Positions 31,979-39,468 of a DNA stretch of 64,000 bases are shown piece by piece. The notes below the pieces were generated by a model. The model saw only the letters and a list, made by a program, of their open reading frames with translations. It had not been told where the DNA came from and searched no databases. The stretch spans positions 1 to 64,000 of the forward strand of contig NW_005178449.1 of assembly GCF_000341285.1 (NCBI RefSeq), written 5' to 3'. The translations under genes were made by a program, and so were the position numbers. Source of the DNA: Galdieria sulphuraria (taxonomy: Eukaryota; Rhodophyta; Bangiophyceae; Galdieriales; Galdieriaceae). The number at the start of each line of letters is the position of its first letter. The first letter of the stretch is position 1.

Positions 31979-33114
31979 ATGGCCAAGTTATCTATTGGTT
32001 TGGAAGGAAGTGCTAATAAAGTAGGCGTTGGTATTGTTACTGAACAAGGTATTCTTTAACCAAGTTTACTTTACGTTTGATAAAATAGATTGTTATTCAG
32101 GAGATATTCTTGCCAATGTCCGTCGTACTTACATTTCTCCACCGGGTCACGGGTTTTTGCCAAGAGAAACTGCAAAACATCATCAAAAGCACATCGTTCC
32201 TCTCATAGCCGAAGCACTGAAACAAGCGCATATACATCCCGAACAATTAGATTGTGTTTGTTTTACTCAAGGTAAATTGTTCCGGTTATCCTTTTTGAGC
32301 AAGCTTGAAGTGGTGGTTTTCAGGTCCAGGGATGGGTGGTCCACTTTGTTCTGTTGCTGTAGCAGCTCGTACGGTTTCCCAATTGTGGAGAAAGCCTTTA
32401 ATTCCAGTGAATCACTGTGTAGCTCATATTGAAATGGGTCGATTGGTTACTGGAGCAAGCGATCCTGTAGTGTTGTACGTGAGTGGAGGTAATACGCAAG
32501 TTATTTCGTTTACACAAGGACGATATCGAATATTTGGAGAAACGATTGATATTGCAGTTGGCAATTGTTTGGATCGATTTGCTCGTCTCATCAACCTTTC
32601 CAATGACCCTAGTCCAGGTTATCAAATCGAACAGATGGCCAAACAAGGAAGGCACTTCATAGAACTTCCTTATATTGTGAAAGGAATGGATGTTTCTTTT
32701 TCTGGTTTATTGTCATTGATGGAGGAACAGTTGGATAACTGGTTAACTCGACAAGGATATACTGTTGCAGACCTTTGTTTTTCGTTACAAGAAACCGTGT
32801 TTTCCATGTTGGTTGAAGTTACGGAGAGAGCAATGGCACATTGTGGTCAAAAGGATGTACTCGTAGTTGGAGGTGTTGGTTGTAATGAACGTTTACAATC
32901 GATGGTACAAAGTATGGCACAAGAACGAGGAGGTCAAGCATTTTGTACAGATGAACGATTTTGTATCGATAATGGTGCAATGATTGCTTGGACTGGTTTA
33001 TTACAATATCTTCATGGAGATAGAAAAGATATTCTTCAAACAGGATGTACTCAAAGATATCGTACTGATGATGTTCCTATTCCGTGGAGATATAAGTCTA
33101 CAACTAACCTTTGA
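31979..33114 (+). CDS. KAE1: KEOPS complex tRNA threonylcarbamoyltransferase, Kae1/OSGEP
   Basis: Three exons (31979-32048, 32101-32271, 32324-33114) with two 52-nt phase-1 introns encode 343 residues. Kae1 transfers the threonylcarbamoyl group to A37 of ANN-decoding tRNAs in the cytosol as part of KEOPS. The start [16 protein letters not shown] is typical of the archaeal/eukaryotic cytosolic form rather than the mitochondrial Qri7 form. The metal-binding histidines are in [12 protein letters not shown]-fold signatures are [20 protein letters not shown] and [12 protein letters not shown] with the C-terminal [13 protein letters not shown]. Its final 11 bases overlap, antisense, the last codons of the PPK1-Nudix gene. 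Confidence 0.96.
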
Positions 33115-36100
33115 ACATTGCCTTGGCTTGTTGAACTGCTTCTCTGAAATGGGCTTTGGTCAACAGTCTTTCAGCTTCGGTAAAGGTAAACCATTGCCTT
33201 CTTCGTCTAACTGCATCATCCCATGTGGAAGCTTGTGAATCGACTCGAAGCAAATGCCAACTGGTTTCTATAGTTTTCCTTCCTTTGCGTTGTTGTGTGG
33301 TACATATCAAAGGTCCTGAAACCCTAAGAAGAGATAGAAAAGATGCAACTTTGACTTACCAATTTCTCCTCCAACTCCTGCTTCTTCCAGAGTTTCTCGA
33401 ATGGCTGCTTCTGCTGGTGTTTCACTGGGTAATACTGTCCCTCGAGGTAATACCCAGGCATCTGCTTCTCCTCCTTCCAACATACTTTCTCGATTTCGTG
33501 CCGTAATAAGTAATATCTGATTGACTCCTTTGGAATTGACGCGAACTGCAATACAACCAGCTTTGTAAACCTGTAATGGTTCACGATTGTCTTTATGCTT
33601 TTTCATTTTCCATTCTTCTTCTCGTGAAGTGCCTCCAGAAGACTGAGTTTCATGTTCACTATCATCTTCCGTGTCATCTAACCATAGTCTATCAAAAAGG
33701 GACTTGGAAATAAAATTGGATTCTTCCTCCATATTTATATTTTGACTGGTATCACCACCAACACCATCTTTTGGAGTATGAGACTTATCTTGACGCAAAG
33801 CTTTTCTATAACGTCCATCACTCAACATTTCCCATCCTTCATACTCATTGGTTCTAAGACGACGTAAATATTTCCAAAGCTTCTTTTGAAGAAGACTATC
33901 CTATTAAATGAATGATATATAAAGTATCAAAATGGGAAATGTCTCCATAAAAAGGAATTTCCAGTACCTCGATAGGAGTAACCACTTCTACTCTGGAAAT
34001 CAAATTCCTTGAACGCCAATCGGCACTACCAATAAAGAATTTGGGTTTGCTTCCATGATTCATAAAGAAAAATACGCGTGCATGCTACATTATCAAGTTT
34101 CAAAGATTGAGTTAACCAGTGGCTAAGTGCACATATTTATCTCATTACCTGTAAAAACCGACCAAGAATAGAAATAACGCGAATAGACTCGCTCTTTCCC
34201 TTTACTCCAGGTCGGACTCTGCACATACCGCGAACGATCAAATCAATTTGAACGCCCGCTTGAGAAGCTTCGTATAACTTTTCGGTAATTCGACTTTCAG
34301 TCAAACCATTCATTTGTGCTACTATCTGCGCTGGTTTTCCATTTCGAGCATTTTCTATTTCCACCTATGCAGAATCATAATATCGCTTAATCGAATATAT
34401 GTACTTCTGAATGTACCTGTATGAGGTCCAAAAACTGATCCAACATAAACATTGGACTGACTAACAACTTACGATAAGATTTCTTTCTGGATATTCCCGT
34501 AAACACGTTGAACAAATCTTGAACATCGGCACAAATATCCGCTTTGCAGGTAAAAAACGACAAGTCTGTATACAATCGAGCAGTGCTTGCATTGTAATTG
34601 CCGGTGGAAATATTCACATAACTCTGAAATTTCTTATTTCCTATAAACAAATAATAACCATCTCGTTTTCAACAAAAATACAAAAAATGTTACCATTTTC
34701 TAAATTTTCTTCTCTAATAACGAGAATAACTTTTGCGTGTGTCTTCAATCCTTTGACACCGTATGCAACATTACATCCCGCATTCTGCAATATTCTAGCA
34801 TACAATACATTCTAATTCATCAAGTTGATATAAAATTTGCATTATGCAACTCGTTGCAGTACCTGATCTTCATCAAAACTTGCTTTAAGTTCAATAATAA
34901 CGCTGACATCCACTCCACGTTGAGCTGCCTCAACTAATGCAGCAACTATAGGAGAATTGTCTCCACAACGATATAAAACAATCTTGATACAAAAAACGGA
35001 AGAATCCTTAGCAGCTGTTTGAAGAAAAGTTAAAGTCGATTCATCAAAAGAATGAAATGGAAAACGAAACAAAAGATCTGAGCGTCTCATAGCATCAAAA
35101 AATGAAATATTTCGTTCCTTCATCATCTTTAAAGTTGGATGAGAATGAAACTCCCATTTTGGATATCTCAACTCGGGAAATACTTTCAGTTGAGAAAGTG
35201 GAAAAGCGTCCTTTAAGCCTAAAATAGGAGAACGGACAAAATAAACAGATTCATCATCTAAATCTAACTGCTCCTTCAAGACAGTTAATAGAGCATCCGG
35301 CACATCACTAGAAACTTCTAACCGAACCGCTGCTCTTCTCTGTCTCTTAAGTATATTCTCCTCTACCACACGAAGAAAATCTTCATCTTCATCCAAATAG
35401 ATACTGTCCAAATCTAAGCTGGTATTTCTAGTTACTCGAAATGGATGAGTAGAAATAATGTACATCCCTATATCAAGAATGCCTTACAAACCTTAATAAC
35501 GGAGACAATAAGACAAATACCTTCAAATACAGTATCCAAGTTGTGCAAGATCAATCTTTCAATGGGAAGAAATTTGCAAGGATCGTCATTTGGAGATATA
35601 AACCTTGGAACTCTATTAGGAACTCTAAGCCAAGCGAAATGTGGTTGTCCAAATCTCCCTAATTTCTTTTCTTCTTCTGACTGTAATAGTACAGCTAAAT
35701 ATAAACTGTGACTTCTTAATAAAGGAAACGGATGCGTTGTATCCAATGAAAGCGGAGTCTAAAAAAACAAGTATATTTGGGTATGAAGGAAACAGTTAGC
35801 GTAAAAGACATCTAAACGAACGTCGTGCTCACCAATAATGGGAAAACCTTTTCCCTATAATATAAACACATAGATTCCTGTTGTGTGCGAGTCAAGTCTC
35901 GAAATCTTGTCAAATGCATATGACACTCTTCTAAAGCTGGAAGAATATCTTCTAAAAGACATTCTTCCTGAATTCTGCAGAGTTGATGAATCTTCTCACT
36001 TAGAGTGGCATATAATGCAGGGTCTCCAGTTTTTATGTCAAACATTCTCTTCGCAAAATATTCATCTAAGTTGGACGAAACTATACATAGGAACTTTAAT

Positions 36101-36783
36101 CTTTCTAACAAGGGAGTGTCAGTGGTCGGATGCACGGCCAATTCTAACACTCGCCAGTTAAAATGAAGTTCTTCTCCTTCTTGTTTAAAGACGTCCGTAT
36201 TAAATGAAGCCTCTTGATTAGATAGTTTACCAATATCATGTGGACACTGCCAAACTGGTTCAGGAGGTACCACAATATATTCCTTGCCGTCCAATAGTCT
36301 AAGGCAGGCATCTTTGCCAATAGTTGCCGCAGTAACTGCCGCAGAACTTGCACTAGAAACACTTGAAACCTCTGCAGGCTCCGCGTTTGAAGAATCCATT
36401 GACACGTTAAGAGGTACAGCTATTTGAACATTTACAACAGAAACCGTTCGAGAAGCTTCTGGAACTCCTGCTTCCCTCGCTAGTGCAATATCTTCTTGTG
36501 AATCGATTGTTGGGCTTTTCACAGTTCTTCCAATGAGATTTTGTGGTTGAATGTTCTGAATAGTGCTAAAATCTTTGGTATTGACTTCCGCAACATCACA
36601 ACCAACTGGACTCTCTGATTCTTTCGGAGTGGATAAATTCACTTTTCCTACTTTTTCCACGGATTTGTGGTCCTTCAAGTAGTGTTCTTCTTGTTCTTCT
36701 TGTCCTATATGTGGACTTCTTCTAGGAAGGTCACCCAACGACGATTGTTTCTCTTCTGTTGTCTTTTCCGTTTCCGTATCCAT
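33104..36783 (-). CDS. Polyphosphate kinase 1 fused to a C-terminal Nudix hydrolase
   Basis: Nine exons: 36783-35833, 35758-35521, 35467-34863, 34811-34694, 34640-34417, 34364-34149, 34084-33968, 33900-33360 and 33315-33104 (introns 44-74 nt, all frames consistent) give 1073 residues. Residues 1-205 are low-complexity, acidic and Ser-rich. Residues about 207-862 are full-length PPK1: [45 protein letters not shown] (H623, the phospho-histidine position), [34 protein letters not shown] (H785) and [16 protein letters not shown]. Exon 8 ends PPK1 ([10 protein letters not shown]) and runs unspliced through an acidic linker into a Nudix domain (about 932-1073). Its Nudix box, residues 977-999, fits GX5EX7REUXEEXGU except Thr at the first U. 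PPK1 makes polyphosphate from ATP. The Nudix part resembles diphosphoinositol-polyphosphate hydrolases (LPRG, late W-F-EA-L pattern), some of which cleave polyphosphate. The fusion is seen directly; its substrate is not. Confidence 0.93.
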
Positions 36784-37357: not shown

Positions 37358-38797
37358 CTAAGACTCCTTTTCAGAACAAGTCAGCTCGTCTTCCATCGCA
37401 TTGCTTTTGTTCTTGCTGGTTCCAATGCGTTCCATAGGAAAGCCTCGTTGTCTCAGAAGTGCACGGAACCTTTCATCTTCATTATCCAACGAGATGCGTT
37501 TGAATTCTGGAATGAAGAACCACGTAATGATGGCACCTAATAGCGACAAACCTCCACTGATAATGAATACAGCACGAGGACCATTGATAGAGTCTTCACC
37601 ACCAAAGCTATCCATGATGGGTCGAAATACTTGAGTTCCTATAGCACCTCCTGCTTTGCCAACAGCAGCAGAAATTCCATAACATGTTGCTCTTACTGCA
37701 GTAGGATAGATTTCCGCTGGTATTAGACCCAGAGCACAGCCTGCACCGAAATTTCCAAAAAAGTTAAATATGCCATATAACGTGATGAAAGCACCGACAG
37801 AAGACTTCACTTGTGGATAAGCTGCCCCTATGATGATTGCAAAAATGGCGCTTCCTACAAACCCGATGATTTGTTGCATTTTTCTTCCCAAATGATCGAT
37901 AGTGAGAGTCCCAACAAGTGCACCAGGAATGCCAAACAAAGCCAGTATTATTGTGTAATAAGTTGCTTGGAAGAGTACTGAATATATCGTATCGGCATGA
38001 ATGAGCTGTTTGACAAGTGTCCCCCCGAAGATTCCATTTGAAAAAGCAACAAAATCGTATACAAACCACGAACCACACGTTCCAACTAGGCGAAATGCAT
38101 ATTCTTTCAAGACCAATAAATATGGAGGATCTTTGAGAATGGCTTCTTCTGAGTACTTTTTGGAGTTGAACATCTTTAAACGAAAGTAAAAGACAGTAAG
38201 CATTGGAATGACTCCCAGTCCAAAGGATATTCTCCAGATTGGTTCCATATTTTCGATACCGAATATTTTGAATAAAACCAGCTGAGCAAGCATACAAGTG
38301 ATTCCTCCAAATACGAAAGAAACATTGGATACTAGGCAGACATAAAGACCTCTCTTGTTGTAATTTCTTTCTTCCGTAGCTTCGCTTGCATTAGTAGTTG
38401 CACAGGGATACTCTCCACCAATTCCAACCCCAACAATTCCTCTGTATACAACTAGAGCCCAGAACATACCATTGGTGGAATTATGATATCCATAGGCACC
38501 AGCACAGAGTAAAGTTCCAACAATGGTTAAAATTGTGGTGATAACAAGACCGATTTCTCTTCCGACTCTATCACTTACTATCCCAAGAACAAGTTGTCCT
38601 ACGATAGCTCCTACTAAAAGTGCATCGCTCACTCGAGAACTCATCTGACTAGTATATGTTTCAGGATATTCGACAGGAAAATAGATATTTAAGATGGTCA
38701 GCACATATTCTGCATATCCAACAGCTGAAAAGGCCACACCTGCAAAGATGATGTTGTTCAAAGCAGAACTTTTCAAAGAATGCGTGATACAAGACAT
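37358..38797 (-). CDS. MFS transporter of the phosphate / glycerophosphodiester (Pht1/Git1) type
   Basis: A single-exon 479-residue permease with twelve hydrophobic segments. The signature GIVGVGIGGEYPCATTNASE after TM4 corresponds to the GGDYP/GGEYP box of phosphate:H+ symporters (Pht1, Pho84) and of glycerophosphoinositol permeases (Git1). The E rather than D and the following A-S-E are closer to the Git1 side. DRVGRE and DHLGRKM are the two loop signatures; IPAEIYPTAVRATCYG precedes TM10. Import of phosphate or a phosphodiester at the plasma membrane is expected. It lies on the same strand as, and 574 bp upstream of, PPK1-Nudix, so the two could share phosphate-related function, although in a eukaryote adjacency alone is weak evidence. 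Confidence 0.82.
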   Translation of the reverse strand: MSCITHSLKSSALNNIIFAGVAFSAVGYAEYVLTILNIYFPVEYPETYTSQMSSRVSDALLVGAIVGQLVLGIVSDRVGREIGLVITTILTIVGTLLCAGAYGYHNSTNGMFWALVVYRGIVGVGIGGEYPCATTNASEATEERNYNKRGLYVCLVSNVSFVFGGITCMLAQLVLFKIFGIENMEPIWRISFGLGVIPMLTVFYFRLKMFNSKKYSEEAILKDPPYLLVLKEYAFRLVGTCGSWFVYDFVAFSNGIFGGTLVKQLIHADTIYSVLFQATYYTIILALFGIPGALVGTLTIDHLGRKMQQIIGFVGSAIFAIIIGAAYPQVKSSVGAFITLYGIFNFFGNFGAGCALGLIPAEIYPTAVRATCYGISAAVGKAGGAIGTQVFRPIMDSFGGEDSINGPRAVFIISGGLSLLGAIITWFFIPEFKRISLDNEDERFRALLRQRGFPMERIGTSKNKSNAMEDELTCSEKES

Positions 38798-39468
38798 CCT
38801 GTGGACTGTTGCTCAGTAATCCAACAACACCATTCTTACAAAGAATTTAAAGAGCTCGAGGAATTTCCGAATCCAAAGGAATCTCTCAGGGGATATTCAA
38901 TTCCGTGTAAGTTAACCCAGAATGCAGCATGGGAGAGAAGACCAACTCAGCAGAAGCAATTCCGACGACGGTAAAGTAGCACAAAGAAAGTTTTGCATCC
39001 CTATATCTATAAATAGGCAGAGAATAGCCACAATTGGAACACAGAAATATTGGAGATTATTCTTTGAACAGCATCTTTTTCTTTACATTTCACTGCTTCA
39101 TAAGATATATAGCTTTTCAGCTCCCAACAGTTTCCATATTCAGGTGTTCTAATGGATATAAATATAGTTGTGCCGTATTCATTACAAGCAAAAGCTCTCT
39201 GACCAAAACAATTTGTATTTTTTAATACGAACAAATGAGATGTCAATTCTATGCCAAGAAAATACCGATAACTTTGAAATATCAAGTTGGTGGTGAAAAA
39301 CTTGGATATTAAAAAAGTAATGGAGTAGCCAGTAGAGGAACCATGCTAAACTAAGCATTGACATGCTATATACAAAAGAGAATCCCGAGAAACCACAGTA
39401 GATGTTTTTAACACATTTCTTAAAGTTGAATAAATGAACAATTTGCAAATTAAAGTCACCGGAGCGGA
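38798..39468. other. Divergent intergenic region
   Basis: About 670 bases between the starts of the Pht1/Git1-type transporter (-) and the nucleotide-sugar transporter (+). Short frames on both strands overlap each other and show no domain. Both promoters are expected here. Confidence 0.5.

Follow-up and report, generated by a model that had tools for sequence, protein, structure and literature searches.

A PPK1-Nudix fusion gene of Galdieria sulphuraria, with a set of catalytic Nudix glutamates that is complete in cyanidiophytes but not in a sister clade

The window analyzed here, a stretch of 64,000 nucleotides from the genome of the hot-spring red alga Galdieria sulphuraria (contig NW_005178449.1, positions 1 to 64,000), carries on its minus strand a gene in which polyphosphate kinase 1 (PPK1) is joined to a Nudix domain. 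This observation is confirmed: the gene is predicted to encode one protein joining a bacterial-type PPK1 to a Nudix domain and, by sequence comparison, is the G. sulphuraria member of a red-algal PPK1-Nudix fusion. For red algae, both this kind of fusion and its involvement in polyphosphate accumulation are already known. What appears to be new, judged from aligned residues, is a contrast in the Nudix half, whose cutting residues are intact in the cyanidiophytes and have been lost in a sister clade.

Structure of the fused gene

The gene was rebuilt by script as nine minus-strand exons (36783 to 33104) that encode 1073 residues, the same count as in a preliminary description made from the letters of the window. 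All eight introns are of the GT..AG type and measure 44-74 bases. A single open frame in exon 8 (33900-33360) covers residues 824-1003, so that the last PPK1 residues and the whole Nudix box are read without a break and the claim of an uninterrupted junction stands. The gene and its exons, with the evidence for each, are as follows.

33104..36783, minus strand: PPK1-Nudix gene, nine exons, 1073 residues (splicing, domains, orthologues)
35833..36783, minus strand: exon 1, residues 1-317; a tail of some 160 residues at the N terminus, the whole of PP_kinase_N and the start of the middle domain (splicing, Pfam)
35521..35758, minus strand: exon 2; PP_kinase middle domain (splicing, Pfam)
34863..35467, minus strand: exon 3; end of the middle domain and start of PP_kinase_C_1 (splicing, Pfam)
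34694..34811, minus strand: exon 4; H623 (GLKTHAK) (splicing, motif scan)
34417..34640, minus strand: exon 5; end of PP_kinase_C_1 and start of PP_kinase_C (splicing, Pfam)
34149..34364, minus strand: exon 6; PP_kinase_C (splicing, Pfam)
33968..34084, minus strand: exon 7; H785 (FLQHARV), the histidine being the first residue of the exon (splicing, motif scan)
33360..33900, minus strand: exon 8; end of PPK1, a linker predicted to be disordered in an orthologue, and the Nudix box at 977-999 (splicing, motif scan, orthologue model)
33104..33315, minus strand: exon 9; latter half of the Nudix domain, with a basic RRRRQW stretch (splicing, Pfam, alignment)

The four Pfam domains of PPK1 occur in order and above cut-off in the 1073-residue protein, namely PP_kinase_N at 200-291, PP_kinase at 301-485, PP_kinase_C_1 at 519-689 and PP_kinase_C at 696-863 (E 2e-16 to 9e-60), and the closest solved PPK1 structure matches at E 4e-88. 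They are followed by NUDIX at 940-1057 (E 2.4e-11, 44.2 bits against a cut-off of 21.1), within which residues 977-999 satisfy the strict Nudix box GX5EX7REX2EEXG. A motif scan finds the catalytic histidines H623 and H785 and the Nudix glutamates intact, as first described. Both histidine motifs recur in all 30 fusion rows compared below, which comprise 29 retrieved proteins and the protein of the window. Across the assembly searched (12.0 Mb in 102 contigs, the window being part of contig C27), this gene, with two exon matches, is the one PPK1 locus.

GenBank holds the same gene as 'Polyphosphate kinase [Galdieria sulphuraria]' (P0001, 1037 residues), which is 100% identical over residues 820-1073 and scores 623 bits with the NCBIfam PPK1 equivalog TIGR03705, against a cut-off of 466. 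That model treats part of exon 1 as intron, and an out-of-frame stretch stands where the PPK N domain should begin. The uninterrupted exon 1 of the window matches the proteins of G. partita (P0002) and G. phlegrea (P0003), and these relatives indicate that the GenBank model of exon 1 is wrong. The N-terminal tail has a model confidence score (pLDDT) below 50 in the G. partita orthologue.

On the plus strand, a TsaD/Kae1 threonylcarbamoyltransferase frame (32299-33114) is directed towards the gene and shares its last 11 coding bases with it (33104-33114). A major-facilitator transporter gene (37361-38812, minus strand; Sugar_tr E 9e-43, MFS_1), which may encode a phosphate transporter, lies immediately upstream of the fusion and is read from the same strand.

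Spread of the fusion and the PPK1 tree

The C-terminal 254 residues, a Nudix-end query too weak for the size of the database, retrieved three Galdieria fusions only. Over residues 820-1073 the G. partita model matches at 89% and the G. phlegrea model (species taken from the label 'Galph1/Gphleg') at 74%, and both have the same architecture. Among the best 120 of 7993 matches to the PPK1 part, eight carry PF00293 (P0001-P0003, P0005-P0008 and P0096): three from Galdieria, one each from Cyanidium caldarium and Cyanidiococcus, P0005 and P0006, which bear no species name and group with Cyanidiococcus in the tree, and the transcriptome (MMETSP) entry P0096, a PPK1-Nudix fusion of the sister clade. 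When residues 640-945 of a Porphyridium-like protein were used instead, 17 of the best 120 of 4761 matches carried PF00293, all of them among the algal rows of the tree, and the C-terminal alignment reveals a Nudix-like domain in six further proteins lacking PF00293, including that of Porphyridium purpureum. The domain search suggested in the preliminary description has found the same architecture in cyanidiophytes and their sister clade, with no bacterial fusion among the matches listed; since these are only the best 120 of 7993 and the best 120 of 4761, a bacterial fusion may nonetheless exist.

In a PPK1-core tree of 57 rows, 32 algal rows fall on one side of a branch with Shimodaira-Hasegawa-like approximate likelihood ratio (SH-aLRT) support of 100. 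They divide into a cyanidiophyte group of nine (SH-aLRT 100), in which Cyanidiococcus (P0007) groups with the G. sulphuraria protein, and a sister group of 23 (SH-aLRT 99). The tree comes from a quick search without bootstrap, with 25 bacterial rows hand-picked from the search lists, and leaves out green-algal, moss and amoebal PPK1s, so that a single red-algal fusion event is not set against them. One of the 22 sister-clade rows, P0009 (Porphyridium purpureum), bears a species name; the tree suggests that the others are red-algal as well.

The PPK1s of Cyanidium and Cyanidiococcus are 55-56% identical to that of G. partita, and the fusions of G. partita, G. phlegrea, Cyanidium caldarium and Cyanidiococcus yangmingshanensis share the domain order and an intact Nudix box. 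Five cyanidiophyte species identified by label have the fusion; the case that the preliminary description held would undo it, in which close relatives keep the two parts as separate genes and the junction is a misassembly, was not what we found.

Yagisawa et al. (Plant Mol Biol 115, doi 10.1007/s11103-024-01539-5; cited in PMC12526157 and PMC12345225) name in their title a PPK1-Nudix fusion in polyphosphate accumulation of Cyanidioschyzon merolae. The preliminary remark that no described protein of this kind was known is therefore mistaken. By that title, C. merolae is a further cyanidiophyte that, like Galdieria, has a Nudix hydrolase joined to PPK1; it belongs to another genus, and no search match bears its name. 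According to a review (PMC12526157), most PPK homologues of eukaryotes carry a fused Nudix hydrolase of the diphosphoinositol (DIPP) family, and VTC is mostly absent from red algae (section 5). A bacterial origin of red-algal PPK1 was reported in 2013 (PMC3680246); the available part of that paper does not contain the word 'Nudix', and those of PMC11314164, PMC5389931 and PMC6973038 make no mention of the fusion. The literature searched yielded no paper on polyphosphate kinase with Nudix in Galdieria, or on a pseudoenzyme Nudix with polyphosphate kinase.

The Nudix half and its catalytic glutamates

As the preliminary description proposed, the fused Nudix is DIPP-like, as judged by its sequence. 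Human DIPP1-3 come first in a sequence search of solved structures (E 1e-12 to 1e-11), and the first Ap4A hydrolase follows about five orders of magnitude behind. The closest solved relative by sequence is human DIPP1 (NUDT3), with which it has in common the Nudix box and an equivalent of R115; the PGGG of DIPP1 is PRGT in Galdieria. At this position P0005-P0008, of the Cyanidium/Cyanidiococcus type, have PKGS or AKGS. Human DIPP1 and yeast DDP1 are stand-alone enzymes, unlike the fused Nudix of Galdieria. An NCBIfam search of the Nudix half gave no Nudix model above cut-off. In AlphaFold2 models of the Nudix parts of the G. partita protein and of the sister-clade protein P0126, pLDDT is mostly 85-95, with a low-confidence stretch before the Nudix and dips within it (76-80 in P0126, 58-76 in G. 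partita).

Alignment of the fusion rows divides them into two sets. E66, E69 and E70 (DIPP1 numbering) are all present in eight of eight cyanidiophyte rows, which represent seven genes because the window row and P0001 come from one gene, versus none of the 22 sister-clade rows. Taken singly, E66 is kept in 1/22 of the latter, E69 in 19/22 and E70 in 1/22, and in 18/22 the box reads R-[IV]-[AT]-R-E-K. The equivalent of R115 is kept in 8/8 cyanidiophytes and 21/22 sister-clade rows, K90 in 8/8 and 20/22, and W119 in all 30. Two proteins placed in the tree were left out of this count: P0004 (Galdieria-like, 781 residues), whose sequence stops before the Nudix part, and P0080 (sister clade, 1029 residues), with no Nudix by Pfam or by eye.

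P. purpureum PPK1 and its sister-clade relatives thus resemble Galdieria in bearing a C-terminal DIPP-like Nudix on PPK1 and differ in the glutamate triad; Pfam does not list NUDIX for six of the 22. Searched against PDB sequences, the degenerate Nudix of Porphyridium still finds a DIPP first (2.3e-5), and that of P0126 an oomycete Nudix protein (7e-7), an Ap4A hydrolase (4.5e-5) and then DIPP1 (6e-5). With the P0126 model, the best Nudix match in Foldseek was yeast DDP1 (2.5e-7), closely followed by MutT1 (5.4e-7), matches that would fall on its Nudix part. VIA-align of the same model gave 50 rows of PPK1/PLD type and no Nudix row, the parts outside 492-838 being barely tested.

In DDP1, the exchange E80Q (equivalent to E66 of DIPP1) abolishes activity, and neither E80Q nor E83A affects substrate binding (PMC8064635). 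By analogy, loss of the glutamates in the sister clade could leave a binding domain. Persistence of the fold and of the conserved arginine despite the incomplete triad suggests a ligand-binding module that would control the polymerase and may still be hydrolytic in Galdieria. We found no prior report of the glutamate contrast in the literature searched, in which Yagisawa et al. are known by title only.

A proposed control of polyphosphate synthesis

The explanation we favor, though with some reserve, begins with a PPK1 half that would make polyphosphate from ATP and, no VTC domain having been found in the assembly, would serve as the main polyphosphate polymerase of Galdieria. The Nudix half would bind inositol pyrophosphates (PP-InsP), the polyphosphate chain or both, and thereby couple PPK1 output to phosphate status; the cyanidiophyte domain could also cleave the bound ligand, and that of the sister clade would be a binding-only module. 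The genome contains a gene of the IPK kinase family, a PPIP5K gene and SPX domains. Three SPX-domain places lie less than 2 kb from contig ends (C30:1033, C62:794 and C72:1278) and may be subtelomeric or repeated copies. Exon-by-exon Pfam searches of the G. sulphuraria assembly gave no match to the VTC domain PF09359 (detected in 3/14 prokaryote controls, with no eukaryote control) or to Ppx/GppA (prokaryote controls only).

A more specific idea, which we hold tentatively and regard as less probable than that broader explanation, is that the red-algal Nudix half is first of all a PP-InsP/polyphosphate sensor controlling the polymerase, a functional counterpart of SPX on VTC; red algae outside the cyanidiophytes would have a pseudo-Nudix able to bind but not to cut, and Galdieria and its relatives a self-resetting one that also hydrolyses its ligand. 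The idea draws on the fact that the whole sister group has kept a domain which is probably dead. In VTC as in PPK1-Nudix, the polymerase that makes polyphosphate carries a further module, SPX in the case of VTC, that may serve in PP-InsP sensing; in the two systems polymerase and sensor come from different families, and no VTC match was found in the Galdieria genome.

Several points weigh against a DIPP-like binding module on the main polymerase. Yeast DDP1, a DIPP-type enzyme, stands far below the human DIPPs in the sequence search (2.5e-6 to 0.006), and with the G. partita Nudix model Foldseek placed MutT1 (2.4e-8) and AvrM14 (2.8e-8) slightly before an Ap4A hydrolase (1.1e-7) and DIPP2 (1.4e-7). 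R89 is kept in 7/8 cyanidiophytes but in 1/22 sister-clade rows, and Arg89 is described as essential for binding (PMC7619153); the R41 position is a gap in 21/22 sister-clade rows. The VTC and Ppx negatives depend on exon-by-exon searches of a 102-contig assembly with prokaryote controls only, and a VTC1p homologue is reported in C. merolae (PMC3680246). The assembly has 11 Nudix places. A stand-alone DIPP-like exon (C1:247706-247864) is the sole other genome match to the fused Nudix (42%, about 60 query residues, E 0.005), with Ap4A hydrolase and DIPP matches in the PDB. The fused Nudix is therefore not the sole DIPP-like protein, and the product of that exon could perform PP-InsP hydrolysis alone.

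The Nudix half might instead be an endopolyphosphatase that shortens the chain made by its own PPK1 half and so sets chain length. The Nudix box is intact in all eight cyanidiophyte rows, DDP1 cleaves polyphosphate (PMC8064635), and the missing Ppx/GppA match, within the scope of that search, would fit such an activity. Against it, the domain is kept without the full glutamate set in 22/22 sister-clade rows; hydrolysis is for this reason unlikely to explain the persistence of the fusion in general, and trimming alone fails for the sister group. We consider this account unlikely, if still deserving of some weight. Polyphosphate turnover in one polypeptide, as the preliminary description put it, is weakened as a general explanation and retains the intact cyanidiophyte box in its favor; overall, that interpretation is partly supported.

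A cleaning role unrelated to polyphosphate control, with dinucleotides (Ap5A/Ap6A) or some other nucleotide as substrate of the Nudix half, seems to us distinctly improbable. MutT1 and Ap4A hydrolases are level with or ahead of the DIPPs in the structural comparison above, and DDP1 also hydrolyses Ap5A and Ap6A (PMC8064635); the order of matches by sequence, however, favors the human DIPPs, and fusion to a polyphosphate polymerase favors a phosphate-chain or PP-InsP ligand. An artefact of assembly, annotation or splicing, in which two adjacent genes were wrongly joined, is conceivable in that the G. sulphuraria gene model was made from genomic sequence only, yet it is rejected as having practically no chance of being true, because the junction lies within one exon and the orthologues carry the same fusion, in gene models from two other Galdieria species, Cyanidium and Cyanidiococcus and in transcriptome entry P0096; only one error common to all these gene models would leave it standing.

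A red-algal polyphosphate polymerase with a built-in DIPP-like domain is confirmed here, and its lineage is one from which VTC is reported to be missing (PMC12526157). From the contrast in the glutamates it can be predicted that binding and control are what maintain the domain. If this is true, the fusion would constitute a second route, beside SPX on VTC, by which polyphosphate synthesis is tied to phosphate signalling.

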